64,000 nt of DNA from Gemmatimonadota bacterium (GCA_016873995.1 VGVR01000011.1:1-64000); one strand, 5' to 3'; positions 3,602 through 43,284 are shown, counted from the first letter of the stretch. Numbers and translations are program-made. The notes: a model not told the origin generated them from the letters alone.

Positions 3602-4546
3602 TCAGTCCCCGCCTCCGCCGCCCCTCCCGCCCGGGCGCACCCAACCGTCGTTGGCGGGACCGTTCTGGTGCGCGCGAGAGTCGGCGCTGAGCGGGTTTCC
3701 CGTCGCATTCCCGAACGCCGCGTTCGCCCAGAACTTGCCTGCCTGGTAGACGGCGTTCCGCGTGCGGATCTGCAGGTCGTGATACTCGCGGCTGTCCGGC
3801 GCAAACCCCGAGAAGCTGGCCAGGTCGGCGTTCCCGAGCAGCACCACGTCGACGCCCGGTACCGAGGCGATCTCGAGCGCGTTGTCCACGCCCTCGGGCG
3901 TCTCGATCATGACGATGACCAGCATGTTGTCGTTGGCCGACTGGCGGAAGTTCGACCCTGCAGGCACGAACGGCGTCCAAATCCCGGTCCCCTGACCCCC
4001 TCCGGTGCTTCTGCGCGCCGTCGGCGGGAAGCGGGAGTAGCGAGCGGCTTCTCTCGCCTCGAGCGCGTCGTCCACGGTCGGCACGATGATCCCCAGCATC
4101 CCCATGTCCATGGCCTTCTGAACGTTCCCCTCGAGGGCATCGGGTAAGCGTAAGATCGGCGTGGCCCCGACATTCGGGCACGCCGCAAGCATCGCCTCCA
4201 CCTGGTCGAAGCGCATCGTGCTGTGCTGCATCTCGAACCAGGTGAAGTCGTAATGGGGCGCCTCCTCGCAGTACCGCTGGATGTCGAAGGCAGCGATGGT
4301 GTGGCTGAAGATCTGCTGTCCGTTGAGCAGCTTCTGCTTGGCGCGGTTGAAGAGCGGCCGCGTCGGCTCGTCCATGAACTCGCGCACCGCCCAGCCCCAG
4401 GGGCGGCCGGGGTCGACGGCATCGATGGCGACGGCACCCGTTCCCCAGCCGGCCGAGCTAGTTTGGGCGTGGGTGGCGAGCGGGAATGTCGCGGCTGCGG
4501 CCATCACCAGGGCGGCGACGAGCATCGATTGGTCGAGTCGCTTCAC
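3602..4546 (-). CDS. Exported HpcH/HpaI-family aldolase
   Basis: This 314-aa member of the HpcH/HpaI aldolase/citrate lyase superfamily would cleave or form a C-C bond in 2-keto-acid-type substrates using a divalent metal. Family features seen are FSHT near residue 80, EMQHST carrying the catalytic-type His, TPILRLP carrying the substrate Arg, IETPEGVDN with the metal-ligand Glu, and LGNADLA with the metal-ligand Asp. Residues 1-28 form a clear Sec signal peptide ending THAQ, which is unusual because characterised members are cytosolic. The C-terminus is Gly-rich. It diverges from the sigma factor gene across about 140 nt. Family call is firm; substrate is unknown. Confidence 0.82.
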   Translation of the reverse strand: MKRLDQSMLVAALVMAAAATFPLATHAQTSSAGWGTGAVAIDAVDPGRPWGWAVREFMDEPTRPLFNRAKQKLLNGQQIFSHTIAAFDIQRYCEEAPHYDFTWFEMQHSTMRFDQVEAMLAACPNVGATPILRLPDALEGNVQKAMDMGMLGIIVPTVDDALEAREAARYSRFPPTARRSTGGGQGTGIWTPFVPAGSNFRQSANDNMLVIVMIETPEGVDNALEIASVPGVDVVLLGNADLASFSGFAPDSREYHDLQIRTRNAVYQAGKFWANAAFGNATGNPLSADSRAHQNGPANDGWVRPGGRGGGGGD

Positions 4547-4686
4547 GGTCTACTCCTTGTCACAGGGCGGCCGAGCCGTGCGCGGGGGCACCGGCTGGGT
4601 CCGACGAATCTACTGTCCTCGGGGAACGGCCGCCGGACCCTGCCAGCATCCTTGCAACCGTTCCCGAACGGGTCGTGTCCCACCTA

Positions 4687-5703
4687 ATGCCAGGAAATCC
4701 GAACGACCACCACGAGCCCTCGTTGAGTGATCTAGAGCTGGTAGAGAGGGCCAAAGGAGGAGACACGGACGCGTTCCGTGCGCTCTACGATATGCACGTC
4801 GACCGCATCTATAGACTTGCCACCCGCATGGCCGGGGACGACGAGCTGGCTCGGGACTTCACGCAAGACACTTTCGTGCGGGCCTGGGAGCGCCTCGACG
4901 GGTTCCGCGGGGACTCGGCGTTCTCGACCTGGCTCCACTCGATCGCCGTGTCGGTGAGCCTCAACGGCCTTCGGCGCGTCGACCGCCACCGCAAGCGGGA
5001 GTCCCCGCTGGAGGAGGCGGCCACCGTCTCACGGGCCGCCCGCCGCATGGAGCCCGACGTCAGGGATCGCCTGCACCGCGCGCTCGACGGCCTCTCCGAG
5101 ATCTACAGGACGGTGTTCCTGATGCACGACCTGGAGGGCTACAACCACGACGAGATCGCGGATGCCCTCGGCATCGCGCAGGGCACGTCGAAAGCGCGGC
5201 TCTTCCGCGCGCGGTCGAAGCTGCGCGAGGCGCTCGGAGACGCGATGAGGGAGGATGACGACGATGCGCTTTACGAAGAACGGGATGTGGATGGCGGCCC
5301 TCGGGGTCGCGCTCGCCGCAGAGGCGGCGGCGGCCGCGCAGTCGGCGCCGATCGCGGTGACGGCCGAGCCGTCCGTGAGGGTGACCGCCCCCGCGCCGTG
5401 GCTCCAGGAGGATCCGGCGGCACGCGAGTACGCCGCGGCACGGCAAGCACTCAACGAGGGGCGTTATCAGGCCGCCGCGGACGGGTTCGCGGCGCTGCGC
5501 CGCACACGCCCCCAGTCAGGGTACGTGCCCGACTCGTTCTACTTCGAGGCGTTCGCGCTGAACAGACTCGGAGAGCGCACGCAGTTGACGAGAGCCGTGA
5601 GCCTGCTCGACGAGCAGCTCCAGCGCTTCCCGGAGGCGGCGACCCGCGCCGACGCCGACGCGCTCCGCGTGCGCATCGAATCGCAGTTGGCTCAGCGCGG
5701 TGA
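4687..5703 (+). CDS. ECF-type RNA polymerase sigma factor (frame overruns its expected end)
   Basis: The protein from ATG 4687 has sigma-70 region 2 (FRALYDMHVDRIYRLATRMAG ... DFTQDTFVRAWERLDGFRG ... FSTWLHSIA) and region 4 (LSEIYRTVFLMHDLEGYNHDEIADALGI ... SKARLFRARSKLREAL), ending near base 5235. That is a complete ECF sigma factor of about 185 residues. The frame nevertheless stays open to 5703, adding about 150 Arg/Gly-rich residues that overlap the following HEAT gene out of frame. That tail looks like non-coding shadow. Adding one base upstream of 5255 would end the protein at TGA 5256-5258 in an ATGA overlap with the next gene, so a one-base deletion is likely. No anti-sigma gene follows. 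The partner genes are two secreted HEAT-repeat proteins. Confidence 0.85.
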   Translation: MPGNPNDHHEPSLSDLELVERAKGGDTDAFRALYDMHVDRIYRLATRMAGDDELARDFTQDTFVRAWERLDGFRGDSAFSTWLHSIAVSVSLNGLRRVDRHRKRESPLEEAATVSRAARRMEPDVRDRLHRALDGLSEIYRTVFLMHDLEGYNHDEIADALGIAQGTSKARLFRARSKLREALGDAMREDDDDALYEERDVDGGPRGRARRRGGGGRAVGADRGDGRAVREGDRPRAVAPGGSGGTRVRRGTASTQRGALSGRRGRVRGAAPHTPPVRVRARLVLLRGVRAEQTRRAHAVDESREPARRAAPALPGGGDPRRRRRAPRAHRIAVGSAR

Positions 5704-6760
5704 CGCGCGTGCGGCGAGGAACGTCATCCGGCAGGCCAACCCCACGCCGCCGAGTCCAGCCCCAGCGCCGAGTCCCACGTCAGCGCCGAGTCCCTCGCCG
5801 GCGCCGAGCCCGGCGTCTCCGGTGTCGCCGGCGCGTCCTGTTTCGTCGAGCGCCCCGCGAGCCCAGGCGACCTGCCCCAATCAGGAAGCACGCCTCGCGG
5901 CCCTCTCGGCTCTGCTCAACATGAACGCCGAGCGCGCCGTGCCCATTCTCCAGGAAGTGCTCCGCAGCCGCGACGAGTGCTCGGTGGAGCTGCGCCGCCA
6001 AGCCGTTTTCCTGGTGTCCCAGCACATGAACGCAGAGTCGGTGGAGATCTTGCTCGACCTGGCTCACAGGAATCCCGATCCCGACGCGGAGGTCCGCGAG
6101 CAGGCGGTCTTCTGGCTGTCGCAGGTGCGCAGCGACGAGGCCATGGACGCGCTCGAGGCCATCCTGCGTGAGAGCACGGACCCCGAGCTGCGCGAGAACG
6201 CCGTCTTCGCCATCTCGCAGCAAGGAGGCGAGCGGGCCGTGCGCGCCCTGCGCGACCTGGCGGAGCGGTCCGACGTGCCCACCGAGCTACGCGAGAACGC
6301 CATCTTCTGGATCGGGCAGACCCCTGGTGCCGGCGGAGCGCGCTACCTCATGGATCTCTTCGACCGGCTCGACGACGAGGAGCTGAAGGAGAACGTCCTC
6401 TTCGGTGTTGCCCAGTCGAACGACGCCGAGGCGCTTCGCTGGCTGGTCGAGCGCGCCCTGGACACGTCTGAGTCGGTGGAGGTGCGCAACAACGCCCTCT
6501 TCTGGGCCGGGCAGTCGGGTGCGCTCGGCCTCACCGAGCTGCGCTCGCTCTACTCCTCGCTCGGTGCCGACGAGCAGGAGCTCAAGGAGCAGGTCATCTT
6601 CGTCGCCTCGCAGGAGAACGACGCGGAGTCCGTCGACTTCATGATGGAGATCGCGCGCACCGAGCAGGACGAGGAGCTACGCGAGAACGCCATCTTCTGG
6701 CTCGGCCAGAGCAACGACCCTCGCGTGCCCGAGTTCCTCTTGCAGCTGATCCGCGGATGA
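5264..6760 (+). CDS. Exported HEAT-repeat protein with Pro/Ala/Ser linker
   Basis: A signal peptide (MWMAALGVALAAEAAAAAQ) is followed by a TPR-like helical segment (AAREYAAARQALNEGRYQAA...), a Pro/Ala/Ser-rich linker and about seven HEAT-like repeats of 31-37 residues. Each repeat carries a variant of the signature LRENAIFWLGQ. The ATG at 5264 is preferred over 5255 because GGGAGG sits 9 nt upstream of it. Such repeats form protein-interaction solenoids, here most likely periplasmic. The gene follows the sigma factor and overlaps the next HEAT gene by 4 nt (ATGA), so all three probably form one operon. Whether the HEAT protein senses a signal for the sigma factor is inference only. Confidence 0.82.
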   Translation: MRFTKNGMWMAALGVALAAEAAAAAQSAPIAVTAEPSVRVTAPAPWLQEDPAAREYAAARQALNEGRYQAAADGFAALRRTRPQSGYVPDSFYFEAFALNRLGERTQLTRAVSLLDEQLQRFPEAATRADADALRVRIESQLAQRGDARAARNVIRQANPTPPSPAPAPSPTSAPSPSPAPSPASPVSPARPVSSSAPRAQATCPNQEARLAALSALLNMNAERAVPILQEVLRSRDECSVELRRQAVFLVSQHMNAESVEILLDLAHRNPDPDAEVREQAVFWLSQVRSDEAMDALEAILRESTDPELRENAVFAISQQGGERAVRALRDLAERSDVPTELRENAIFWIGQTPGAGGARYLMDLFDRLDDEELKENVLFGVAQSNDAEALRWLVERALDTSESVEVRNNALFWAGQSGALGLTELRSLYSSLGADEQELKEQVIFVASQENDAESVDFMMEIARTEQDEELRENAIFWLGQSNDPRVPEFLLQLIRG

Positions 6761-29789: not shown

Positions 29790-31634
29790 CTACCAGCCCG
29801 CAGCCTGCCCGTCCTTGCGATGGTCCGACCCCGCACGGTACACGCCGTTCACGGGGTGATCCTCGGCCACGCTCTCAAGACCGAAAGAAGGAGCCGGTAG
29901 TGTGGGGTCGCGGGTGAACAGGATGCCCTGAAAGCCACCGACCGCTCCACCATCCACTGCACGCACCTCGTGCCCCTTGGCCTGGAGCGCAGGCCCCACC
30001 AAGTGGAAGAGATCGGTCTCGAGGGAGAGCACGTTCGACCCTTGGCTGTGCGTGAAGCGCGCCGCGTCGGTGGTCATCTGCACATTCATGCCGTGGTCGA
30101 TGACGTTGACCATGTGCTGCACGTGCGTCTCGGGCTGCACGCTCCCGCCCATGTTGCCGAACGTCATGAGCGGCTGACGGTCCTTCATGACGAAGCCGGC
30201 GATGATCGAGTGGAAGGGCCGCTTGCGGGGAGCGACGAGGTTCGGGCTCGCCGGATTCAGCGAGAACGCGCTGCCGCGGTTGTGCAGGACGATGCCGTAC
30301 GGCGGGACGGTGGCTGCGCTCCCGTACACCGAGAACACGCTGTGGACGAACGAGACCATGTTGCCCCACCGGTCCGCCGTGGTGAGGTAGATGGTCCCGC
30401 CGTCGAGCCCACCTGTGACCGACGGCTCGGCGGCTCGTGCCATGTCAATGCGACTGCACAGCGTACGCGCGTAGTCCTTCGACAGCAGTCGATCCACCGG
30501 CACGTGCTCGAACTTCGGGTCGCCGTTGTAGGCCTGCAGGTCCGAGTAGGCCAGCTTCTTGGCCTCGACCATGAAGTGCCAGTAGTCGGGATGCGTGGGG
30601 CCGAGATCCGCGAGCACGAGGCCGTGCACCGGCGCGCACACCTCGAGGATGTTGAGCATCTCCAGGGCCGCGAATCCCTGACCCGGGGGCGGCAACTGGA
30701 AGATGTCGTAGCCGTGATAGTTGGTCGTGATCGGCTCGACCCACTCCGACTCGTACTCCGCGAGGTCGGCGTTCGTCATCACGCCGCCGCCCGCGCGAAC
30801 TTTGGCTACGATGGCGTCGGCGATGGGCCCTCGGTAGAACGCGTCTCGCCCGTCGCGCTGGATGAGCCTGAGCGCGGCCGCCAGCTCCGGATTGCGAATG
30901 AGGCTGTAGAGCGGCGGAGCCTCTCCGTTCACCAGGAACGTCCGGTTCGAGTCGGCGTCGCGGCGTAGACGCCCCTCGGCGGACAGGATGTCCGCGTGAC
31001 GCCGCTCCGCCTGCCCCCACCCCTCCTCGGCGATGCGCGCTGCCCGCTCGAACGTCTCGCGGAAGCCCATCGTGCCGAAACGCTCGAGCAGCGCATCGTA
31101 CCCCGAGATGGCACCCGGCACCGTCGCCGCGTTCACACCGGAGCCGGGCATCCGCTCCACACCGAGTTGGTTACGGAAGAACTCGGGGGTCCACCCTGCC
31201 GGCGCCCACCCTGCGGACGAGAGCCCATACAGCTTCTGCTCCCGCGCGACCCAGACCAGCGCGAAGAGGTCGCCGCCGATGCCGGTGTCGTTTTGCGAGG
31301 TGACGTCGAGCACCGCACCCGCAGCGACGGCCGCGTCGATCGCGTTGCCGCCGTTGCGGAGAATCTCGAGCCCCGCCTGCACCGCCAGCGGATCGCTGGT
31401 GGCCACCATGCCGTGCCGCGCCAATACCTCGGAGCGGCCCTGACCCTGCCACCCCTGGGCTCGCGATCCGCCCACCGCCGCGATGGTCGCGGCCGGGTTC
31501 GGCTCGTCCGCCGTAGGCGCGCCGAACGGATGGCTCGACTGGGCAGACGCGGCCGCGGCGAAGACGAGGAGGCCGACCGCCGACGGCGTGACGCCGACCA
31601 GCCGGCCACGGATAGAGCAGAGACTCGTGCGCAT
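29790..31634 (-). CDS. ggt: Gamma-glutamyltransferase (glutathione hydrolase)
   Basis: The ATG at 31634 has GAGGAGG about 8 nt upstream. The 614-aa preproprotein has a signal peptide ending ASAQ, then the gamma-GT fold: GMVATSDPLAVQAGLEILRNGGNAIDAAVA, NDTGIGGDLF, and the autoprocessing site before T414 (GG|TIYLTTADRWGN), where the nucleophilic Thr starts the small subunit. GNMGGS and related loops follow. It hydrolyses or transfers gamma-glutamyl groups from glutathione and similar peptides in the periplasm. The residues after the Thr differ from E. coli (TIY instead of TTH), within family variation. It diverges from qhpG; no functional link is evident. Confidence 0.92.
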   Translation of the reverse strand: MRTSLCSIRGRLVGVTPSAVGLLVFAAAASAQSSHPFGAPTADEPNPAATIAAVGGSRAQGWQGQGRSEVLARHGMVATSDPLAVQAGLEILRNGGNAIDAAVAAGAVLDVTSQNDTGIGGDLFALVWVAREQKLYGLSSAGWAPAGWTPEFFRNQLGVERMPGSGVNAATVPGAISGYDALLERFGTMGFRETFERAARIAEEGWGQAERRHADILSAEGRLRRDADSNRTFLVNGEAPPLYSLIRNPELAAALRLIQRDGRDAFYRGPIADAIVAKVRAGGGVMTNADLAEYESEWVEPITTNYHGYDIFQLPPPGQGFAALEMLNILEVCAPVHGLVLADLGPTHPDYWHFMVEAKKLAYSDLQAYNGDPKFEHVPVDRLLSKDYARTLCSRIDMARAAEPSVTGGLDGGTIYLTTADRWGNMVSFVHSVFSVYGSAATVPPYGIVLHNRGSAFSLNPASPNLVAPRKRPFHSIIAGFVMKDRQPLMTFGNMGGSVQPETHVQHMVNVIDHGMNVQMTTDAARFTHSQGSNVLSLETDLFHLVGPALQAKGHEVRAVDGGAVGGFQGILFTRDPTLPAPSFGLESVAEDHPVNGVYRAGSDHRKDGQAAGW

Positions 31635-31824
31635 GGGCACCTCCTCTCGGGCAAAGACCTGCAACCGCAGTGCGGCCAATGTAGGACGTACGGTCGCGGC
31701 CCGGATAGGCTGCCCCGACGCCTCCGCCTGGTATCCTGATTCGGAGGTTCGTCTGCATCCTCGGGCCGCCGCATCCGACTCGGGACACTAGCTTTCGGGA
31801 GCGGGCCGTCGGGCCGACTCACCC

Positions 31825-33351
31825 ATGAACCGGAGCCGTGTGACCCCTCGTCCGCGTGCCCAGTACGACGTCATCGTCCTCGGGAGCGGTCCCGCAGGAT
31901 GCGCTGCGGCTACCTTGCTCGCCCGCGAGGGTCATGCGGTGGCTTTGGTTCGCCCCGGCACTCCTGCAGCGGCCGCGCTGGGCGAGTCGATCCCACCCTC
32001 GGCCCGGCGCATTCTGGCCGAGCTGGACTTCTTGGCGCCGCTCGAGCGCGCGGCCTTGCATGCCAACCGGGGCAACGTGGTGTGGTGGAGCGGCGAGGAG
32101 GCCCGCAGCGAGACGTTTCCCGACGGACAGCTCGGCTTCCACACCGATCGGGCGAGCCTCGAGGCCGTCCTGCTCGGAACCGCCGAGCGCGCCGGCGTCA
32201 GCGTACTCGACCATGCCACCGCGCGGTCCGCCGCGGAAACCCCCGAAGGCTGGCGTGTAGTCTGCGAGCGCGAGGGCGGACCGAGTCTCGAGGTCTGGGG
32301 CGACTGGGTCGTCGACGCGACCGGGCGTCACGGCCTGGTCGCTCGCACCGAAGGCCGCCGGCCTGACCGTGGAACCTCGACGCTCGCGCTGGTTCGGCGG
32401 TGGCGCCGCACGGATGGGTGGCCCGACGAGCACGCGCATCGCACGCTGATCGAGAGCTACGCCGACGGGTGGGCTTGGTCCGTGCCCCTCGACGACGGCG
32501 TGCGCTGCGTCGCAGCGATGATCGGCGGCCGCAGAGTGCGCAGAGGACGGGCGGGCGTGGCCGCGACGCTCGAGGCCGAGCTGACCAAGACGCGCCATCT
32601 GAAGCAGGCTCTCGAGGGTGCCACGACCGAAGGGGAGGCATGGGCGTGTTCGGCCTCGCTCTACACGGCTGGACGATTCGCCCGTCCAGGGTTGCTCCTC
32701 GCCGGGGACGCGGGCTCGTTCATCGATCCCCTCTCGTCGTTCGGGGTGAAGAAGGCGCTCTCGTCCGGATGGCTCGCCGGTATCGCCGCGCATACGGCGC
32801 TCGTCGACTCCCAGTCCACGAGTGCGGCGATCGAGTTCTTCGATCGACGGGAGGCCGACGTCTACCGGCGCTATCGCAACTTGTCGGCCCCGTTCTTCGA
32901 GCGTGCGGCGGCCGTGTACGCGACACCGTACTGGGAGGTGCGCGCACGTGCCGCCCGTCGAGCCGGAGGCGAAGGGCCGGACTCGGCCGCTGACCCCGAT
33001 CGCACCGCAACCGAGCTTCCCGAAACCGAGGTGCGCGCCGCGTACGAGGTGATTCGCGCCCGACCCACCCTGGACGCGGTCGTCAGCGCCGCGCTACGCC
33101 GAGTGGATCGACCCGCCATCGAAGGTCACCGCATCGTCCTGCAGGAGCATCTGGCGAGCGTCCGGTGCCCCGAAGGCATCAGGCACGTGCGCGGCGTGGA
33201 CCTCCGTCAGCTCGTCGCGAGCGCGCCCGGCCACGGCGAAGTGCCCGACGCCTGGGCCGCATACAACGGCGCTGCGCCGCCGGTCACCCTTCCCGACTAC
33301 CTCACGGCGCTGGCGACGGCGTTCGCCGCGGGCTTCCTCCAGCACGGCTAA
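31825..33351 (+). CDS. qhpG: QhpG-like FAD-dependent monooxygenase for the QHNDH cofactor
   Basis: This 508-aa flavoprotein resembles flavin-dependent halogenases/monooxygenases. It has an N-terminal FAD motif (VLGSGPAGCAAA), the halogenase-type motif GWAWSVP, and the FAD-binding GDAGSFIDPLSSFGVKKAL. It is the first gene of the quinohemoprotein amine dehydrogenase operon. In that system the QhpG flavoprotein hydroxylates the gamma-subunit tryptophan that becomes the quinone of CTQ. The assignment rests on the family plus the unmistakable neighbours. There is no signal peptide, as expected for an enzyme acting on cytosolic QhpC. The gap to qhpA is 197 nt. Confidence 0.78.
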   Translation: MNRSRVTPRPRAQYDVIVLGSGPAGCAAATLLAREGHAVALVRPGTPAAAALGESIPPSARRILAELDFLAPLERAALHANRGNVVWWSGEEARSETFPDGQLGFHTDRASLEAVLLGTAERAGVSVLDHATARSAAETPEGWRVVCEREGGPSLEVWGDWVVDATGRHGLVARTEGRRPDRGTSTLALVRRWRRTDGWPDEHAHRTLIESYADGWAWSVPLDDGVRCVAAMIGGRRVRRGRAGVAATLEAELTKTRHLKQALEGATTEGEAWACSASLYTAGRFARPGLLLAGDAGSFIDPLSSFGVKKALSSGWLAGIAAHTALVDSQSTSAAIEFFDRREADVYRRYRNLSAPFFERAAAVYATPYWEVRARAARRAGGEGPDSAADPDRTATELPETEVRAAYEVIRARPTLDAVVSAALRRVDRPAIEGHRIVLQEHLASVRCPEGIRHVRGVDLRQLVASAPGHGEVPDAWAAYNGAAPPVTLPDYLTALATAFAAGFLQHG

Positions 33352-33548
33352 CCGCGCCCCGGGCTCCGAGGCCCGTGGCCAGCCACCGCCTCGTAACACC
33401 GGGAGCGCGGGAACGCCCGAGTGGCGGGCCGCAACGCCGGGCGCCGCGCACGTGCTGGGCCTCCGCAGCCTGGCGGCCGGCCTCCCACGTCGGCAAAATG
33501 TCGCGAGTCGCTCACCGCCCGCGATTTCCTCGAACCCCAAGGGAGCCC

Positions 33549-35246
33549 ATGGCGCCTGGTCGTGCGGTGCTCCGGGTCGCCGCTCCGCTGGCCCTCGGTG
33601 TCGCGGTCGCCTGCACCCCGGCCTGGGCGCAGTCAAGGAGCGCGGACGAAGCCGCTGGGTTCGCCATCGAGAACGCGGCCACGGTCGCGCGCTGCTCGCG
33701 CTGCCACCGGCAGGACGACGACGGCCGCATGTCGCGGATCTCGTTTCTGCGGAAGACACCAGAAGGTTGGCAGACCTCGATCCGCAGGATGGTCGCTCTG
33801 CACGGCGCGCGCCTCAGTCAGGACGAAGCTCGGGAGATCGCTCGCTACCTCTCCAATGAGCAGGGCCTCGCCCCCGAAGAGCTGCGGCCTGGACTCTTCG
33901 AGGTCGAGCGCCGCCTGATCGACCACGACTGGGACGGCGATTCCGGCGTCGAGTTCACATGCATCCAGTGCCACTCGATGGGGCGTGTGATGACGCAGCG
34001 CCGCACCGAAGAAGAGTGGGGCTTGCTGCTCGCCACCCACCGTGCGCTCTACCCCCTCGTCGACTTCCAGGCCTTCCGTCGAGCCGGCCCCCCGCCCGAA
34101 GAGGGCGAGCGCCGTCACCCCATGGACGTCGCGATCGCCGAGCTCTCGGAGGCCTACCCGCTCGAGACGGACGAGTGGTCGGCATGGGCCGCGACGAAGC
34201 GCCCGCCCCGTCTCGCTGGACAGTGGGCGTTGTCCGGCGTGGAGCCCGGACGGGGGCCGATCCACGGCACCGTGACCGTCGCCGGAGACGCGAGCAGTCC
34301 CGACGAGTTCACCACCACAACCGAGTACGTGTACGCCGAGACGGGCCAGCGCGTGCGGCGCACGGGCGACGCAATGGTCTACACCGGCTACCAGTGGCGC
34401 GGCCGCTCCAACCCCGGCGCCGACGACGAGCTCCGCGAGGTGATGTTCGTCGAGCGGGACCAGCAGAGCATGAGCGGGCGCTGGTACCGGGGTGCGTACG
34501 ACGAGCTCGGGCCGGACGTCACGCTCCGGCGTGTCGGCGCTCCGGTGGTCACGGGCGTCTTCCCCTCCGCCGTGCAGCGCGGATCGACGGTCGACGTGCG
34601 CGTCTTCGGAGGCGGCATCAATGCGGCCTCCCCCGCGGACCTGGACTTCGGGGCGGGCGTCACCGTGATCTCGGTGACAGGCCCCACCAACGGAGCCCTC
34701 ACCGCGAGGCTCCGGGTCGACGCAGCCGCGACCGTCGGCGCGCGGGACCTCTTCGCTTACGGAGCCCTACTCCAAGGCGCCCTGGTGGTGCACGACGGCA
34801 TCGACCGCATCGAGGTGACTCCCGGCAGAGGCATGGCGCGCGTGGGCGGCGCGAACTTCCCCAAGGGATACCAGGTGTTCGAGGCGCACGGCTTCGACGA
34901 CGGCCCCGACGGCGAGCCGGACACGGACGACGACCTCGACCTGGGCCGCGTGAGCGTGGAGTGGCGCCTCGAAGAGTACGCCGCGATCTACGGAGACGAC
35001 GACATCGACTTCGTGGGCACGCTCGGCCAGGATGGCATCTTCGTTCCGGCAGAAGACGGCCCCAACCCGAATCGGTCGGGAAGCAGGAACAACGTCGGAG
35101 ACGTGTGGGCCGTGGCGACGCATACACCCCCCGGCGGACAGGCCCTGAGCGCGCGAGCGCACCTGATCGTGACGGTGCCGCTCTACATGCGCTTCGATCC
35201 GTGGGGCCCGATCGAGGACCCCCGCGCGCTGGGGGCGAGCCGGTGA
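33549..35246 (+). CDS. qhpA: Quinohemoprotein amine dehydrogenase, alpha subunit (diheme)
   Basis: The ATG at 33549 has GGGAG upstream. The 565-aa protein has a signal peptide ending AWAQ, then a diheme cytochrome c domain with CSRCH at 49-53 and CIQCH at 138-142, then beta-rich Ig-like domains (YVYAETGQRVRRTGDAMVYTGYQWRG ... VTGVFPSAVQRGSTVDVRVFGGGI). This is the known architecture of the QHNDH alpha subunit, which carries electrons from the CTQ-containing gamma subunit to a periplasmic acceptor. It overlaps qhpD by GTGA. Length fits the family. Confidence 0.92.
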   Translation: MAPGRAVLRVAAPLALGVAVACTPAWAQSRSADEAAGFAIENAATVARCSRCHRQDDDGRMSRISFLRKTPEGWQTSIRRMVALHGARLSQDEAREIARYLSNEQGLAPEELRPGLFEVERRLIDHDWDGDSGVEFTCIQCHSMGRVMTQRRTEEEWGLLLATHRALYPLVDFQAFRRAGPPPEEGERRHPMDVAIAELSEAYPLETDEWSAWAATKRPPRLAGQWALSGVEPGRGPIHGTVTVAGDASSPDEFTTTTEYVYAETGQRVRRTGDAMVYTGYQWRGRSNPGADDELREVMFVERDQQSMSGRWYRGAYDELGPDVTLRRVGAPVVTGVFPSAVQRGSTVDVRVFGGGINAASPADLDFGAGVTVISVTGPTNGALTARLRVDAAATVGARDLFAYGALLQGALVVHDGIDRIEVTPGRGMARVGGANFPKGYQVFEAHGFDDGPDGEPDTDDDLDLGRVSVEWRLEEYAAIYGDDDIDFVGTLGQDGIFVPAEDGPNPNRSGSRNNVGDVWAVATHTPPGGQALSARAHLIVTVPLYMRFDPWGPIEDPRALGASR

Positions 35247-36718
35247 GCCCACCCGTCGCAGCTTTGTCGCCGACGCGGACCGTACGCAACGACCGCACCT
35301 TGGCGCTCCGCGAGTTCCATCCCTTCGAGGCGTTCGGGGCGCGCTTCCTCTACATGGTGCCCTCGGCCGGCATCTTCCGGCTGGACTCGACCGGCGCCGC
35401 CATCCTCGACGCGCTCGCGGCCGGCCCGTGCGAGCCCGACGCGCTGGTCGAATCACTCAGCGGCGAATACGAGATCGATCGGATCCTCGAGACCATCCAC
35501 GAGCTGACCGAGATCCGCGCGATAGGCGATCCGTCCGCGCCCAAGGAGCAGGTTCCCAACGACCTGCCTCCCGCGGACTTCCCGCTCAACACGATGGTCC
35601 TCAACGTCACGAACAAGTGCAACCTGGCGTGCACCTACTGTTACGAGTACGGCGAGGACAAGATCGTCGACACCCGGTACGGCAAGCAGCCCAAGTTCAT
35701 GAGCGAGGAGACCGCCGAGGAGAGCGTGGACTTCCTGCTGGCCGAGTCCAAGGGGCAGCAGGTCGCCCGACTCACCTTCTTCGGCGGCGAGACGCTGCTG
35801 AACTTCCCGGTGCTCCAGAAGACGGTGGCGTACGCGCGCCGGCGTGCACAAGAGCAGGGCAAGCGCGTCGAGTTCAGTTTCACCACCAATGCCACGCTGC
35901 TCCGGCCCGACATCATCCAGTGGCTCGCCGACAACCAGATCGGCGTGACCATCTCCATCGACGGCCCGAAGGCGGTGCAGGACGGGCTCAGGGTCTTCAG
36001 CAACGGGCGCGGCTCTTACGACGTGGTGCTGCCGAAGATCAAGGAGCTCCTGCAGGTGCACCGCAGCCGCCCGATCGGCGCGCGGGTGACCCTCACGCAA
36101 AAGCACCTGAACGTCCTCGAGATCTTCCGCCATCTCACGCAGGAAGTCGGGTTCTGGGAGGTCGGGCTCGCGCCGGTGACGACGCAGGACCACCGCGACT
36201 ACGCGATCACACCGGAGGGAAAGGACGAGATGCTCCGTCAGTTCGAGCAGCTCGCCTGGGAGTGGCTCGAGTGCGCGCTGCGCGACGAGCACCACGGGTT
36301 CTCGAATGCCCGCGACACCATCGAGGAGATCCACAAGGGCGTCAGCAAGGCATACGGCTGCGGTGCGGGGCTCGGCCTCATGGGCGTCGCGACCGACGGG
36401 AACGTGTCGCTCTGCCATCGCTTCGCGGGCTCGCCCGAGCACACGCTCGGTCACGTGTCGAGTGGCGTCGATCGCGTGAAGCAGCAGAGCTTCCTGGTGG
36501 ATCACCACATCGCCGCGAAGACGGACTGCCATACGTGCTGGGCGCGCCCGATCTGCTCGGGCGGATGTTACCACGAGGCCCACGTGCGCTACGGCGACTC
36601 CTCACACGCCAACTTGCACTACTGCACGTGGGTGCGGAGCTGGACGCACACGTGCCTCGAGATCTACGGCGCGTTGGCCGAGAAGAACCCCAAATTCCTG
36701 GAGCGCTTCGACGCGTGA
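35243..36718 (+). CDS. qhpD: Radical SAM/SPASM maturase of QHNDH gamma subunit
   Basis: GTG 35243 lies in a GTGA overlap with qhpA. The 491-aa protein opens with a PqqD-like recognition region (IFRLDSTGAAILDALAAG ... LVESLSGEYEIDRIL), then the radical SAM motif CNLACTYC (C126, C130, C133) and FFGGETLLNF. A Cys-rich SPASM region follows (YGCGAG, LCHRF, DCHTC, PICSGGC, YCTW). QhpD installs the intra-peptide Cys-to-Asp/Glu thioether cross-links in QhpC. Its substrate gene follows 31 nt downstream. This is among the most confident calls in the window. Confidence 0.93.
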   Translation: MSPPVAALSPTRTVRNDRTLALREFHPFEAFGARFLYMVPSAGIFRLDSTGAAILDALAAGPCEPDALVESLSGEYEIDRILETIHELTEIRAIGDPSAPKEQVPNDLPPADFPLNTMVLNVTNKCNLACTYCYEYGEDKIVDTRYGKQPKFMSEETAEESVDFLLAESKGQQVARLTFFGGETLLNFPVLQKTVAYARRRAQEQGKRVEFSFTTNATLLRPDIIQWLADNQIGVTISIDGPKAVQDGLRVFSNGRGSYDVVLPKIKELLQVHRSRPIGARVTLTQKHLNVLEIFRHLTQEVGFWEVGLAPVTTQDHRDYAITPEGKDEMLRQFEQLAWEWLECALRDEHHGFSNARDTIEEIHKGVSKAYGCGAGLGLMGVATDGNVSLCHRFAGSPEHTLGHVSSGVDRVKQQSFLVDHHIAAKTDCHTCWARPICSGGCYHEAHVRYGDSSHANLHYCTWVRSWTHTCLEIYGALAEKNPKFLERFDA

Positions 36719-36749
36719 GCGTCTGGGCACGGAAGAAGGAGCGATCCGA

Positions 36750-37112
36750 ATGAAGCACCTGAAGCCGATCAATCAGAAGGCGGTGCGCATCGAGGCGTAC
36801 GTGGCCCGCGAGGCGGCAAGCACGTCCGCGCCCGAGCGCGACGTCGTCGGTCTGCGCCGGCCGCCGCACGAGCAGACGGGCCCACACTTCCCGCTGGGCT
36901 GCTCCTTGGTGTTCTCGCCGGGGTGGGAGGTCGATTCGGACGGCGGCACCGCCGGGCTCTGCCAACCCGTCGAGCGGGACATCTTCGACTGCCACCTCTC
37001 CTGCTTCTGGCCGGCCCACGTCCCGGATCAGCTGAACCACGCGCTCGACTGGACCGGCAAGTGCGCGTCGGCCCAGAAGGACTGGCGCAACCTCGACCTC
37101 ATCTTCCCGTGA
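36750..37112 (+). CDS. qhpC: QHNDH gamma subunit precursor (CTQ and thioether cross-links)
   Basis: This 120-aa precursor is preceded by AAGGAGCG. A leader of about 44 residues is followed by a core whose residues match the cross-links known for proteobacterial QHNDH in number and spacing. C51-E60, C71-D77 and C85-D93 correspond to thioethers Cys7-Glu16, Cys27-Asp33 and Cys41-Asp49. C81 and W87 correspond to Cys37 and Trp43 of cysteine tryptophylquinone. Flanking PGWEVD and DWRNL are also conserved. C105 is an extra cysteine without an obvious role. The peptide lacks a Sec signal, which fits maturation in the cytosol and export by a dedicated ABC transporter. Confidence 0.93.
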   Translation: MKHLKPINQKAVRIEAYVAREAASTSAPERDVVGLRRPPHEQTGPHFPLGCSLVFSPGWEVDSDGGTAGLCQPVERDIFDCHLSCFWPAHVPDQLNHALDWTGKCASAQKDWRNLDLIFP

Positions 37113-38269
37113 TCGCTTTCGTGCAGAGGCATTCCTTCGCGCGCACGGTGCTCGACGCCCTCGCGGACGCCGCGCTCGTGGCGTTCGTTGCGCTCGTAGA
37201 CACCGCGCTCGTGGTGCTCGCAGGCGCCGCCGCGGCGGCCGCGTCACCAGCCTCCGCCCAGACCGCGACGTGGTACATCTCGACCTACGCGCGCGACATC
37301 GCGATCTGGGATGAGGCGACCGAACGCATAACCGGCCGCATCGACATGGGCGGCCTGCTGCCGACGGACATCCAGGTGAACGAGGCGAGGACCCGACTCT
37401 ACGTCGAGGAGGCGTCCGGTCAGCGCATCTCGGTGGTCGACCTGGCGATCAGGCGCGTCGTGGACGAGATCGCCCTCTCCCACGACAGCGTCGTGGTGCG
37501 CATCGACGGCTTCGCCCCCCACCCCTCCGATCGACGCGCCGCGCTGGTCGTGAAGAAGTACACCAAGCGCATCGATCGGTACGTGGTGGAGGGGCCGTTC
37601 CTGCTCGAGTACGACCTGACGACCAAGCAGGTCACCGACACGCTACCCTGGCCCGACGACGAGCCGCGCGACCGCGGCCTGGGATTCAACTACTCACCGG
37701 ACGGCGAGACACTCTACATGTCCGCCGAGGACATCATCGCGCTGGATGCGGATACGTTCGAGGAGGTCGATCGGTGGGAGATCTCCCGCCCGCTCGAGCC
37801 CGGACTCGGACAGACGAATCCGCCCACGTTCTCGGGCACCTACGACGAGCCCGGCGTCGCCACGGGGCTCTACCGTATGACGGACCCGGCGCAGAACCGG
37901 AGCATGATGGGCATCGCCCAGGTCCGGCTCTCCGAGAAGTCGGTCGATTTCTACATGCTCGGTCCCGCCGAGCCCGTCAGGTTCTTCGCGCTGGCACCTG
38001 GAGGCCGCAAGGGCTACGCGCTCTACTCCGAGGTGGGGCGCTATGAGTTCTGGGAATTCGATCTCGAGGGGCGGCGCGTCGCCCGCAAACAGCCCTTCGC
38101 CGGAAGGCCCCGCATGGGACTCCGGGTCAGCGCCGACGCCCGCAAGCTCTACGTCTACGTGGCCGGCGCGACCATCGATGTCTACGATGCCGCGACGTTC
38201 GAGCTCCTGCGCACCGTGGAGCTCGGAGCGGACATGCTCGGGTCGGCAGTGATTCCGGGCACCCGGTAG
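37109..38269 (+). CDS. qhpB: Quinohemoprotein amine dehydrogenase, beta subunit (beta-propeller)
   Basis: GTG 37109 is in a GTGA overlap with qhpC. The 386-aa protein has an unusually long N-terminal region with a hydrophobic stretch (VAFVALVDTALVVLAGAAAAAA) and a signal cleavage-like AQ near residue 50. WYISTYARDIAIWDEATERITGRIDMGG and repeated YVTN-like propeller blades (TRLYVEEASGQRISVVDL, GETLYMSAEDIIALDADTFEEV, RKLYVYVAGATIDVYDAATFELLRTVEL) follow. This is the beta subunit that, with QhpC, forms the amine-binding site in the periplasm. Confidence 0.9.
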   Translation: MIAFVQRHSFARTVLDALADAALVAFVALVDTALVVLAGAAAAAASPASAQTATWYISTYARDIAIWDEATERITGRIDMGGLLPTDIQVNEARTRLYVEEASGQRISVVDLAIRRVVDEIALSHDSVVVRIDGFAPHPSDRRAALVVKKYTKRIDRYVVEGPFLLEYDLTTKQVTDTLPWPDDEPRDRGLGFNYSPDGETLYMSAEDIIALDADTFEEVDRWEISRPLEPGLGQTNPPTFSGTYDEPGVATGLYRMTDPAQNRSMMGIAQVRLSEKSVDFYMLGPAEPVRFFALAPGGRKGYALYSEVGRYEFWEFDLEGRRVARKQPFAGRPRMGLRVSADARKLYVYVAGATIDVYDAATFELLRTVELGADMLGSAVIPGTR

Positions 38270-38316
38270 CCGGCAGCGCTGCTGGCAGGCGACCGGCTGC
38301 GCTCGGTATTCCACTG

Positions 38317-40046
38317 ATGGCGATGCTCGATCCCCACCTGCGACGGGCGCTCGCTCACGTCCGGCCGTATGCCTGGCGACTAGCTCCTGTCCTCGCGCTC
38401 TCCCTCGTGGGGACTGCGGTGGGTCTCGTGCTACCCTACCTGTCGAGGCTCATCGTCGACGACGGCATCGTCCCCGGGGACTTCGCTGCGCTCCTGCGGA
38501 CGGTCGGACTCTTCGCGGCGCTCACCGTGCTGTCGTTCGGCCTGAACGTCGTCGCCGGCCTCCGCTACACGCGGGTGTCCGCCGACATCCTCTTCGACAT
38601 GCGGCTCGCGCTGTTCGAGCATCTGCAGCGCCTGTCTCCCCGCTTCTACGCACGTACGCCGCTAGGCGACATCGTGTCCCGCATCAATGGGGACATCGGC
38701 GAGATCCAGCGCGTCACGGCGGAGGCGACACTGGCTTGGCTCGGGCAGACGGTCGCGTTGGTGGGGGCGACCGCGATGCTCGTCTACCTCGACTGGCGGA
38801 TGTTCCTCGTCAGCTCCGTGGTCATGCCTCCCGCCCTCTGGGCGCTGATGCGCTACCGAGGTCAGCTCGAGGATCGGGTGCGGGTGCTGCGGGAGCGCAG
38901 CGCCGACATCGGCACGTTCCTCATCGAGTCGATCCAGGGCATGACCACCGTGGTCGGCGCGAACGCCCAAACGCGGGAGGTGGCACGCTTTCGTGCGCGC
39001 AACGACTCGTTCGTCGACGCGCTCCTGTCGATGCGCAGGTTCACCTACCTGGCGGGGGGGCTTCCGGGGCTCCTGCTCTCGGCCGGCACGGCGGTGGTGT
39101 TCGTGTACGGTGGATACCGAGTCATCCAGGGCGATACGACGCTGGGGACGTTCGTCGCGTTCATGGCCTACCAGGCGCGACTCATGGCTCCCGTGCAGGG
39201 GCTCATGGGGATCTATACGAACCTCGCCACCGCGCGCGCCTCACTGGTGAGGGTGCACGCCCTGCTCGACACGCGCCCCGACGTCGAGGAGACCACCACG
39301 CCCATCCCCCTCGAGCGCGCAGCGGGCCGCGTCGTCTTCGAGGGGGTGAGCATCGCGTACGGAAGAGGGGCGGAAGGGCTTCGCGACATCGACTTCGAGG
39401 TTCAGACGGCGAAGTCGTGGCGATCGTCGGGGCGAGCGGAAGCGGCAAGTCCACGCTGGCCGACCTGCTCACGCGCAGGCTGGACCCGGACGCGGGACGC
39501 ATTCTGCTGGACGGACACGACCTGCGCTCGCTCCGCCTCGCGGACCTGAGGGAGAGCGTCGCGCTCGTCGAAGCGGACCCTTTCCTCTTCCACACCACCC
39601 TGCACGACAACGTGCGCTACGCGCGGCCGGAAGCGACCGATGCCGACGTCGAACGAGCGCTACGTGCCGCCGGCCTCGGCGAGCTGGTGGCATCCATGCC
39701 CGCCCGCGGCGCCACCGTGGTGGGTGAGCGCGGCAAACAGCTCTCGACCGGTGAGCGACAACGGCTCGCCTTGGCGAGAGCGTTCCTCGCCGATCCCGCG
39801 GTTCTGATCCTCGATGAGGCCACCGGCGCCCTCGACCCTGCGACCGAAGCGGGCGTGCTCGATGCGCTCGAGCACCTCATGACGGGGCGCACGACACTGC
39901 TCATCACGCATCGACTCGACCTCGCACGCCGCGCGGGCAGGGTCGCCGTGCTCGAGCAAGGCGCGATCGGCGAGATGGGGCCGCCCGAGACACTGGCACG
40001 CGAGGGCTCCGCGTTCCGGAGCCTTTTTCCCGAGGCGGGCAGGTGA
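38317..40046 (+). CDS. qhpF: ABC transporter (exporter, TMD-NBD fusion) of QHNDH operon, frameshifted
   Basis: The first frame (38317 to about 39405) encodes a six-helix ABC exporter transmembrane domain (VRPYAWRLAPVLALSLVGTAVG ...). The second frame (about 39405-40046) encodes the ATPase with Walker A GASGSGKST, signature STGERQRLALARA and Walker B VLILDEAT. At the junction the DNA reads GTTCAGACGGCGAAG, where one extra G would give VQDGEVVAIVG, the expected continuation. A one-base deletion near 39405 therefore splits the gene. Joined, it is about 576 residues. In QHNDH systems this transporter is thought to move QhpC outward. Its end overlaps qhpE by GTGA. Confidence 0.88.
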
Positions 40047-40714
40047 ATCGAATCTCGGTCGCCGTCATCGACAGCGGCGTGAACGTGCCGCACCCGCACC
40101 TCCCTGCGGTGGCGGGCGGTATCGCCTTCGACCTCGAGGGGAACGAGCACAGCGACATCGTCGACCGGCTGGGCCACGGCACCGCTGCCGCCGCAGCGAT
40201 CCGCGAGAAAGCGCCCGAGGCGGAGCTCTTCGTCGTGAAGGTCTTCGACCGCGAGTTGGCCACCACAGTGCCCACGCTCGTCCGCGCCATCGACTGGGCT
40301 TCTGAGCGCGGCATTCGGCTCATCAACCTCAGCCTCGGCACGCCGAACGAGTTCAGGGTGCCGGAGCTTGCGCCGGCGGTGGAGAGGGCCGTCGCTGTCG
40401 GATCCATCATCGTATCCGCACACGAGCTCGATGGGCGGGTTTGGTTCCCGGGCTCCATGGAGGGAGCGATCGGCGTGGTCGTGGACGCCGCGCACCCGCG
40501 CGAAGACGTCGCCGTCGCGGAGTCGACCTCGGGGACCGTGCTGCGCGCATCACCGTATCCGCGCCCCATCCCCGGAGTGCCGCCAGAGCGGAACCTGAAC
40601 GGGATCAGCTTCGCGGTGGCCAACGCGACCGGCGTGCTCGCCCGACGTCTGGGTGAACACCCGGAGGTCAGGTCCGCGGAGCACGCCATGGAGCTGCTGC
40701 GGCGGCCCGGCTGA
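40043..40714 (+). CDS. qhpE: Subtilisin-like protease for QhpC leader removal
   Basis: GTG 40043 overlaps the qhpF stop. The 223-aa protein is a compact subtilase with catalytic triad D10 (VIDSGVN), H45 (GHGTA) and S189 (NGISFAVAN); the usual GTSMA is replaced by GISFA. It has no signal peptide or prodomain, like the characterised QhpE, which removes the QhpC leader. It closes the operon and is convergent with the diguanylate cyclase 6 nt away. Confidence 0.88.
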   Translation: MNRISVAVIDSGVNVPHPHLPAVAGGIAFDLEGNEHSDIVDRLGHGTAAAAAIREKAPEAELFVVKVFDRELATTVPTLVRAIDWASERGIRLINLSLGTPNEFRVPELAPAVERAVAVGSIIVSAHELDGRVWFPGSMEGAIGVVVDAAHPREDVAVAESTSGTVLRASPYPRPIPGVPPERNLNGISFAVANATGVLARRLGEHPEVRSAEHAMELLRRPG

Positions 40715-40720
40715 CTGCGC

Positions 40721-41971
40721 TCAGCTCCCTCCGGTCGCCTGCTGCAGGGGCGCCGCGACCACGGTGCGGTTGCGTCCCTGATGCTTGGCATCGTAGAGGG
40801 CGCGGTCGGCGATCTCCACCATGGCCTCGAGCGTGCTAGCGGACTCGGGCAGGCCGGCGACACCCAGGCTGACGGTCAAGCGCAACGGAATCGGCGGCTC
40901 GTCGTCCTCCGGGTCCACGACGAAGGTGTGCTCTTCGATCGAGCTGCGTATACGCTCAGCCACCAGCCGTGCCTCGGCCACCGAAGTCTCCGGCATCATC
41001 ACGAAGAACTCCTCGCCTCCGTAGCGCGCGGGCTTGTCGATCGAGCGCAGCTTCTCGGTCAGTAGGCGGGCGAGCTCTCGCAGCACGGTGTCCCCCGCAC
41101 GGTGCCCGTACGTGTCGTTGATCTTCTTGAAGTGATCGGCGTCGGCCATGAGAATCGACAACGGCCGGCCGTGCCTGAGTGCTCGGGCCACTTCGTCGGC
41201 GAGCATCTGCTCCAGGGCGCGCCGATTCGCCAGACCTGTGAGCTCGTCCTGGAGCGCCAGTTCCCGCGTGCGCATCAGCTCCAAACGAACGTGCGCGCGT
41301 TCGTCCTCGAGCCTACGTCGCTCCACGGCCGCCAGAGCCAACGCGGCCTGGTCGGCGAGGGCACCCGCGAACTCCATCTCCGCGGCCGTCCAGGTGCGTC
41401 GCTCCCCGACGTGCTCGAGGCAGACCACACCGACCACGCTGCCGTCACTGCGAATCGCGGCGTCCATCATCGAGGTGATGCCGAGTGGGGTGAGGTACGG
41501 GCCGCTGAACTCGCTCGGGCGCGAGTCTCGGCGGGCGTCGTGCCCGTCGATGGCTCGGCCCAGCTTCAGCGCATCGAAGTAGCGCGGATAGTCCGTGGCC
41601 CGGAGCACCGCGCCCCGGGTGTGTCGGTCTTGCGTGCGCTCGTAGAGCTCCTCGCAGCGCAGCTCCGTGCCGTCCTGGCTCATCAACCACACGCTCGCCC
41701 GCTCGACGCCGATGATCTCCGAAGCTATCCGCGTGAGCTCCTCGTGAATCATCGTGAGCCCCCCTTCGTCCGGGCGCATGCCCGCCAAACGAACGAGCGC
41801 CTGCTGCTGCCGGAGCGCCATGTCCTGGAAGGCGGACGCGCTTGGGCGCAGCTCGTGGCGAGCTTCCTCGAGCTCGAGCGCCGCCTGTTCGCTACGCGCG
41901 TCGGCCTCGGCGCGAGCGGCACGCTCGCGGGCCAGCTCTTGCTGCAGTCGCTCGATGTCGGAAGCCGTCAT
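40721..41971 (-). CDS. Diguanylate cyclase with GAF domain
   Basis: The 416-aa soluble protein has an N-terminal coiled coil (residues 5-60), a GAF sensor domain (about 70-215, EIIGVERASVWLM ... VVGVVCLEHVG) and an intact GGDEF domain: MADADHFKKINDTYGHRAGD, then GGEEF at 318-322. An RxxD product-inhibition site is present (R309, D312). It should synthesise c-di-GMP in response to a ligand or redox signal sensed by GAF. Unlike the first cyclase in this window it has no interruption. ATG 41971 is the natural start. Confidence 0.92.
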   Translation of the reverse strand: MTASDIERLQQELARERAARAEADARSEQAALELEEARHELRPSASAFQDMALRQQQALVRLAGMRPDEGGLTMIHEELTRIASEIIGVERASVWLMSQDGTELRCEELYERTQDRHTRGAVLRATDYPRYFDALKLGRAIDGHDARRDSRPSEFSGPYLTPLGITSMMDAAIRSDGSVVGVVCLEHVGERRTWTAAEMEFAGALADQAALALAAVERRRLEDERAHVRLELMRTRELALQDELTGLANRRALEQMLADEVARALRHGRPLSILMADADHFKKINDTYGHRAGDTVLRELARLLTEKLRSIDKPARYGGEEFFVMMPETSVAEARLVAERIRSSIEEHTFVVDPEDDEPPIPLRLTVSLGVAGLPESASTLEAMVEIADRALYDAKHQGRNRTVVAAPLQQATGGS

Positions 41972-42079: not shown

Positions 42080-42607
42080 TCAACGATCGCCTTCGTCCTC
42101 CCCGCCCTCCTCCTCACCCTCACCACCCTGCATCATCGGCATGCCGGAAGCCGACCCGCTCACGTAGGCCTGCGCGGCCCCGTGCTCGTAGACCAGTCGG
42201 CCTCCCGCGGCGCCCACTTGGATGCCCGCGGCGAGCACGGCCAGCGTGCCCACCGAAGCGACTAGGCGTGCTGCTCGACCAGCCACTCCGGAGAGCAGCC
42301 CGACGCCAGCGACCAACGCCAGAACGCCGGAGAAGACCAGGAAGCGTTCGGCCGCTTCCTCGTGCTCGTTGATGGCAGCCTCGCTGACGAACGCCTCGAC
42401 CTTCTCCTCCTCGGCCTCACCGGTCTCGAGCGCTACCCAAGCGCTGCCAGCAAGCGCGACCGCGAACGCGGCGGGAATCGCCCAGCCCTTCAGAGGCGCG
42501 GCGCCACGCCGAATTGCCCACAGGGCGATGGCGGCGGAGATTGGCAGAAGTACCACGAAGACCATCGGGAAATGCACCACGATCGGGTGCAGGGGCTCCG
42601 GAAGCAT
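42080..42607 (-). CDS. DUF2231-type membrane protein
   Basis: The ATG at 42607 has AAGGAGG 6 nt upstream. The 175-aa protein starts MLPEPLHPIVVHFPMVFVVLLPI, the typical HPIxVHFP opening of DUF2231 membrane proteins, with four hydrophobic helices and an acidic Glu/Gly-rich C-terminal tail. DUF2231 proteins are small inner-membrane proteins, sometimes redox- or heme-linked; function is unknown. It diverges from the LuxR-type gene at 42682 across 74 nt, suggesting a shared control region. Confidence 0.78.
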   Translation of the reverse strand: MLPEPLHPIVVHFPMVFVVLLPISAAIALWAIRRGAAPLKGWAIPAAFAVALAGSAWVALETGEAEEEKVEAFVSEAAINEHEEAAERFLVFSGVLALVAGVGLLSGVAGRAARLVASVGTLAVLAAGIQVGAAGGRLVYEHGAAQAYVSGSASGMPMMQGGEGEEEGGEDEGDR

Positions 42608-42681
42608 CGGTCCTCCTTTCTGAGAGACGCCTGAACGATGCCCCCACCGCGGAGCCCGCAGTATCGAACAGGGGTATCGGT

Positions 42682-43284
42682 GTGCCCCGGAATTGGCCCA
42701 CCAGAAGCCACCTATCACATCTGTTGGATGCCGGCTTGGACCAAGAGCACGAGAGCCAGGAGAAGCTGAGAGTCATCCTCGTCGTCGCCCTCGTGTCGAT
42801 TATCGTCGGGGGCAGCATCGACTTGGCCATGGATCAACCGCAGGACTGGCTGAGCTTCCACGTTATCTTCGAGACGACGATGATCGCGGGGGCCTTGGTC
42901 ATGGCCACCACCCTCTGGCTGGGCTGGGCGCGCACCGCCCGCTCGGTCGAGGAGCTGCGCCGCTCGCTCGAGGCTCGCAAGGTGGAGCGTGACGCGTGGC
43001 GGAGCAGTGCCGAGCACGCGCTCGAAGGCATGGGGCGCGCCATCGACGCCCAGTTCGGCCTCTGGCACCTCACTCCCGCGGAGCGCGACGTCGCGCTCAT
43101 GCTCCTCAAGGGCTACAGCCACAAATCGATCGCCAAGGAGACCGGACGCAGCCCGCAGACCGTGCGTCAGCACGCCGCCGCCGTGTACCGGAAGGCGGAC
43201 CTCGCGGGCCGCGCCGAGCTGTCGGCCTACTTCCTGGAGGACCTCATGCTGCCGAAGGGCGAGGCGAGCGAGAGAGCACCCTAG
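42682..43284 (+). CDS. Membrane-bound LuxR-type transcription regulator
   Basis: From GTG 42682 the protein (200 aa) has two transmembrane segments (VILVVALVSIIVGGSIDLAM and a second near residues 57-77), a short coiled region (ARSVEELRRSLEARKVERDAW), and a C-terminal LuxR-type helix-turn-helix: LTPAERDVALMLLKGYSHKSIAKETGRSPQTVRQHAAAVYRKADLAGRAEL. The N-terminal membrane anchor instead of a receiver domain is uncommon for LuxR proteins. It likely controls nearby genes, the divergent DUF2231 gene first. The GTG was chosen for its position after AGGGG; TTG codons further in are alternatives. Confidence 0.75.
   Translation: MPRNWPTRSHLSHLLDAGLDQEHESQEKLRVILVVALVSIIVGGSIDLAMDQPQDWLSFHVIFETTMIAGALVMATTLWLGWARTARSVEELRRSLEARKVERDAWRSSAEHALEGMGRAIDAQFGLWHLTPAERDVALMLLKGYSHKSIAKETGRSPQTVRQHAAAVYRKADLAGRAELSAYFLEDLMLPKGEASERAP

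Follow-up and report, generated by a model that had tools for sequence, protein, structure and literature searches.

The 64,000-nucleotide stretch of DNA analysed here (the window) carries a predicted quinohemoprotein amine dehydrogenase (QHNDH) operon at positions 31825-40714, which comprises seven plus-strand genes in the order qhpG-A-D-C-B-F-E. The locus very probably specifies a periplasmic QHNDH of a Gemmatimonadota bacterium that represents a separate branch of the family, with its activity assigned by analogy to characterised enzymes. This reading is founded on profile HMM matches, the retention of eight cross-link and cofactor residues, the fold of QhpB, a recurrent gene order, the QhpD tree, and the distribution pattern of a fifth cysteine in QhpC (C105). 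Judged by sequence comparison, the branch differs from characterised QHNDHs in this invariant cysteine, in a longer segment between the leader and the core of QhpC, and in a strongly diverged QhpB. A preliminary description of the locus was right in its main claim of a QHNDH operon, but it was wrong about completeness, and the taxonomy is less unusual than it supposed. The wide distribution of QHNDH was already known, whereas the five-cysteine branch, which was not seen at that stage, merits follow-up. The structures solved for QHNDH, like the studies of its maturation, derive from one branch.

Organization of the operon

Coordinates and reading frames bear out the gene order and single orientation that had been proposed, as well as the three overlaps of 4 nucleotides, each with the sequence GTGA, at qhpA/qhpD (35243-35246), qhpC/qhpB (37109-37112), and qhpF/qhpE (40043-40046). 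Membership in the QHNDH family likewise holds on the basis of curated HMMs and, for QhpB, of fold, with QhpG, QhpE, and QhpB scoring below the family cut-offs. The systems of Pseudomonas putida and Paracoccus denitrificans (qhpABCDEFGR; structures 1jmx and 1jju) share with the window the three structural subunits, QhpD, QhpE, QhpF, and QhpG, the four cross-link and CTQ cysteines with their partners, and two CXXCH hemes. The window differs from them in having the fifth cysteine and the longer pre-core QhpC segment, in lacking an AraC regulator, and in a QhpB that lies far below its cut-off. Identity to the P. nitroreducens proteins is 37% for QhpD, 30% for QhpA, 20% for QhpB, and 40% for QhpC.

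The first gene, qhpG (31825-33351), encodes a 508-residue predicted FAD monooxygenase that would serve as the peptidyl-Trp dihydroxylase. It scores 224 bits against NF049967, which is below the cut-off of 240 but twice the score of the next family. LodB and GoxB, which like QhpG are flavoprotein maturases of CTQ enzymes (in their case CTQ oxidases), are matched with 112 and 107 bits, and no LodA or GoxA gene was seen at the locus. QhpG can be aligned with 7ctq, the P. putida QhpG, but is matched with higher scores by halogenase structures. A halogenase-like WxWxxP motif is retained (DGWAWSVPLDDG, 32464-32499), where 7ctq has WAWMAR.

The qhpA gene (33549-35246) encodes the predicted alpha subunit with a signal peptide, and exceeds the cut-off of TIGR03908 (440 versus 274 bits). 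QhpA contains all four Pfam domains of the alpha subunit together with two c-type heme sites (CSRCH and CIQCH), and its structural matches are 1jmx_A and 1jju_A. The qhpD gene (35243-36718) begins with a GTG codon inside the overlap with qhpA and encodes a predicted radical SAM/SPASM thioether-forming maturase scoring 549 bits against TIGR03906 (cut-off 453). An alignment of 14 sequences shows no variation in the radical-SAM cysteine triad (CNLACTYC) or in the cysteines of the C-terminal cluster. PapB-type ranthipeptide maturases are likewise radical SAM/SPASM enzymes that make Cys-Asp thioethers, but their family (NF047865) gives a score of only 281 bits to QhpD, whose substrate, in contrast, is an enzyme subunit.

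The predicted gamma subunit precursor of 120 residues, which includes the CTQ site, is encoded by qhpC (36750-37112). It matches PF08992 and scores 120 bits against NF037958 (cut-off 50). A leader of 34 residues (36750-36851) is predicted, with cleavage placed between RDVVG and LRRPP because the leader of the published system has 28 residues (PMC7876137) and because this site aligns with EEVVA-MNSLVGC of Paracoccus.

The qhpB gene (37109-38269), whose GTG start codon is inside the overlap with qhpC, encodes a divergent beta-propeller protein that matches TIGR03907 with only 30 bits, far under the cut-off of 223. Its AlphaFold model (pLDDT 86) has 1jju_B and 1jmx_B as the top two fold matches in the PDB, at 17% identity, and both are also found by a profile built from Gemmatimonadota QhpB sequences alone. 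The modelled fold settles the protein as a predicted QHNDH-type beta subunit despite its sub-cut-off sequence score.

The ABC exporter gene qhpF (38317-40046) is frameshifted in the assembly. It is followed by qhpE (40043-40714), which starts with GTG inside the overlap with qhpF and encodes a predicted subtilisin-like leader protease that retains the catalytic Asp, His, and Ser motifs and scores 159 bits against NF049966, slightly under the cut-off of 165. For both QhpG and QhpE, the QHNDH family is the best match at a slightly sub-cut-off score, and the conserved gene order agrees with this assignment.

On the maturation scheme established for characterised enzymes, which involves thioether formation by QhpD, the action of QhpG, QhpE, and QhpF, and a periplasmic trimer (PMC7876137), QhpC would be synthesised with its leader and receive thioethers from QhpD at Cys51-Glu60, Cys71-Asp77, and Cys85-Asp93. 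QhpG would dihydroxylate Trp87, which together with Cys81 would give rise to the CTQ cofactor. QhpE would then cut off the leader, QhpF would export the peptide, and QhpC would assemble in the periplasm with di-heme QhpA and the propeller QhpB into an alpha-beta-gamma trimer. The assembled enzyme would oxidise primary amines and pass the electrons on via the hemes. All of the chemistry and export steps are carried over from proteobacterial experiments, the sequence itself giving only genes and residues. The window contains every gene and residue predicted to be needed, with the reservation that its qhpF is frameshifted.

A fifth cysteine in QhpC

The known links of the gamma subunit are Cys7-Glu16, Cys27-Asp33, and Cys41-Asp49, together with Cys37-Trp43 of CTQ (PMC8172795). 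In an alignment with 1jmx_G and 1jju_C, all eight of these residues are conserved in QhpC of the window, where they correspond to C51-E60, C71-D77, C85-D93, and C81-W87. Thus, QhpC has the residues of a QHNDH gamma subunit, and the links themselves are predicted from them.

In addition, QhpC carries a cysteine at residue 105 (codon 37062-37064) that is invariant in the branch and absent from characterised QHNDHs. All 80 distinct core sequences from the branch carry it, as against none of 14 sequences of the other type, and the position is not a cysteine in either 1jmx or 1jju. The same residue occurs in all 20 Acidobacteriota loci that were read, which had been sampled by phylum, independently of similarity to the window. 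Residue 116 (Asp in the window) is acidic in 80/80 branch sequences versus 1/14 of the four-cysteine type, whereas D111, found in 80/80 branch sequences, is also found in 12/14 of the four-cysteine type. Other diagnostic columns are V74, R76, and D80, each conserved in 80/80. Because only the four heme cysteines are conserved in Gemmatimonadota QhpA, and no cysteine is conserved in mature QhpB from this phylum, C105 has no evident disulfide partner. The AlphaFold model of QhpC (pLDDT 52) is too poor to place C105 or to give distances.

Two explanations for C105 can be weighed. The one we slightly favour, at somewhat better than even chances, is that C105 remains a thiol, free or buried, whose role is to pack the C-terminal helix or to contact another subunit, or else that it is disulfide-bonded with some other partner. 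This is the simplest reading of an invariant cysteine, and C105 falls inside a predicted helix (101-110) of the low-confidence model. However, strict invariance of a free thiol in the periplasm across two phyla would be unusual, and a conserved partner cysteine is lacking in Gemmatimonadota QhpA and QhpB. A more speculative proposal, which we consider rather unlikely, is that Gemmatimonadota, Acidobacteriota, and some Sphingomonadales possess a QHNDH of a second type, with QhpD adding a fourth Cys-Asp thioether from C105 to D111 or D116, giving five internal gamma-subunit links instead of four. The co-occurrence of C105, D111, and an acidic residue 116 across the branch speaks for such a link, as does the spacing from C105 to D111, which equals that of the known Cys27-Asp33 link. 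Moreover, the four other cysteines of QhpC are already committed, the Gemmatimonadota QhpA and QhpB cysteines offer no obvious alternative partner, and the QhpD homologue PapB forms Cys-Asp thioethers (PMC8172795). On the other hand, sequences that lack C105 conserve D111 almost as well, the gamma-subunit model is too poor for distance measurements, and the QhpB cysteines conserved in one subgroup are possible partners. A second branch with one more invariant cysteine, in a subunit where every other cysteine is cross-linked, offers a direct test of what sets the number of links made by a radical SAM enzyme in one protein.

The QhpB subgroup in question combines Acidobacteriota and Sphingomonadales loci (L081, L086, L096, L098-L101, L104, and L125). 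Its conserved cysteines lie in RCEFW and mostly also in PCRSR or a similar sequence, and they are absent from Gemmatimonadota QhpB.

Phylogenetic position of the branch

A carefully built tree of 57 QhpD sequences splits the proteobacterial four-cysteine set from the rest with 100/100 support. The window falls outside this set and has the fifth cysteine, and its operon and relatives are placed by these sequences in a branch apart from the characterised proteobacterial enzymes. Gemmatimonadota QhpD proteins form one clade (100/99), and the state of C105 changes once on the tree. The preliminary description had anticipated that QhpD and QhpC would cluster with known QHNDH families; they do so by HMM, but the separate branch in the QhpD tree was unforeseen. 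The window QhpD shares about 36-40% identity with homologues from Paracoccus, Pseudomonas, Leisingera, and Cupriavidus plasmids, and 50% with that of a Novosphingobium plasmid. Sphingomonadales QhpD proteins are nested among those of Acidobacteriota, which is consistent with transfer of the qhp genes to Sphingomonadales. The operons of other Gemmatimonadota and of Acidobacteriota and Sphingomonadales share the gene order of the window and a five-cysteine QhpC and form a single clade, but their qhpF genes are intact.

The frameshift in qhpF

All seven genes are there, but the operon is not complete as had been claimed. The membrane domain of QhpF (PF00664) is read in the frame that opens at 38317 and continues to a stop at 39549, whereas the ATPase domain (PF00005) is read in a different frame, with the switch at about 39403-39413. 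Within this interval, the window (plus strand) has 11 nucleotides where near relatives have 12, corresponding to a 1-nucleotide deletion. The gene has one open frame in 77 other loci, and a second close copy of qhpF was not found in the genome. Thus, the intact QhpF of the related systems is lacking in the window, and the frameshifted copy may not be able to export QhpC as it stands. Programmed frameshifting was rejected because the site lacks a slippery heptamer and relatives continue through it in one frame. Apparent breaks in qhpF in a few relatives (L103, L054/L020, L071, and L076) were also rejected, since these matches only overshot the normal stop.

Because complete relatives have one open frame, the lesion reflects either a fault of the assembly or a mutation that arose recently. 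If the base has truly been lost, the operon could be decaying in its host, with QHNDH export gone and the other genes on their way out. We hold this to be possible but not probable. The loss occurs here alone among the loci compared, no second close qhpF is available in the genome, and qhpC was not found in the other genomes of the same genus (0/4). Against decay, the reading frames of the six remaining genes are uninterrupted, with motifs and tight overlaps preserved, and the source genome is a draft assembly of 97 contigs with a second possible indel at about 5225-5260. These last two points make an assembly error at least as likely as decay.

The second candidate site concerns a sigma-70-like ORF (4486-5703) that enters a HEAT-repeat gene (5255-6760) by 450 nucleotides without a stop. 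The coding signal changes frame at about 5260, and a single-base indel in the assembly has possibly removed its stop codon.

Host, distribution and genomic context

The host contig belongs to the little-studied phylum Gemmatimonadota, and its placement outside Proteobacteria, as originally suggested, was borne out. It is taken as non-proteobacterial because genomes of the same GTDB family are named Gemmatimonadota, Gemmatimonadales, or Longimicrobiales and because its QhpD belongs to the Gemmatimonadota-only clade. A proteobacterial origin of the contig is very improbable, and so is its presence in a Gemmatimonadota genome as a binning contaminant. Two close loci are labelled as proteobacterial (L038, Rhodospirillaceae; L113, Gammaproteobacteria), but both fall inside Gemmatimonadota clades in the tree and their labels look misbinned. 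The well-supported position of the window QhpD, long DNA matches between the window and a same-genus genome, and an even GC content throughout the window also argue against contamination. A third locus, L056 (labelled Bifidobacterium breve), resembles L038 and L113 in that its qhp operon is nested in Gemmatimonadota or Acidobacteriota clades, and from their sequences the labels of all three look like misbinning.

Occurrence outside Proteobacteria is real but not exceptional. Genome samples drawn evenly from within each phylum gave qhpC in 63 of 298 genomes for Gemmatimonadota, 21 of 297 for Acidobacteriota, and 7 of 399 for Pseudomonadota, and the five-cysteine branch is commoner in the sampled Gemmatimonadota than in the Pseudomonadota genomes. 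This points to primary-amine oxidation as a common trait of Gemmatimonadota and Acidobacteriota. The order G-A-D-C-B-F-E recurs in >30 genomes. The spread of QHNDH genes was already published, with >1300 species mentioned (PMC7876137) and Gram-positive carriers attributed to Nakai 2014 as cited in PMC8172795. A literature search conducted mostly without subscription journals found no work on QHNDH enzymes of Gemmatimonadota or Acidobacteriota.

As previously described, neither the operon nor its immediate surroundings encode a dedicated regulator, whether of the AraC type or another, and the amine-responsive regulator QhpR is missing from the locus. The closest regulatory genes encode a GAF-GGDEF protein (40721-41971, minus strand) and a LuxR-type HTH protein (42514-43284). 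A whole-genome search with the AraC regulator encoded next to a Paracoccus qhp operon gave one weak AraC-domain match (37% over 82 residues) on another contig. Across about 86 loci, there is no conserved neighbour or regulator, with no non-qhp gene common to >9 of them.

A divergent gamma-glutamyltransferase gene (29790-31679; L178:10238-11996 in a second locus) adjoins the operon and shows about 80% identity within the genus. No clean empty site was obtained by comparison within the genus. In genome G003, the gamma-glutamyltransferase gene is in a different neighbourhood, flanked by the counterparts of window segments located at about 3.5 kb and 10.5 kb, and the region has therefore been rearranged between the window and G003.

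Several other loci depart from the usual arrangement. In L057 (same genome as L025), a single-contig Longimicrobiales genome has a split operon, in which qhpC and qhpB are not accompanied by qhpA or qhpD in the 10 kb upstream and qhpF lies about 7 kb downstream. On a Paracoccus contaminans plasmid (L153:5225-8803), peaA is shortened and two hypothetical fragments occupy the expected place of qhpB, and this operon is apparently degenerating. Finally, a Pseudomonadota genome (L151) retains a qhpC remnant that scores below threshold and is interrupted internally by a TAA stop.
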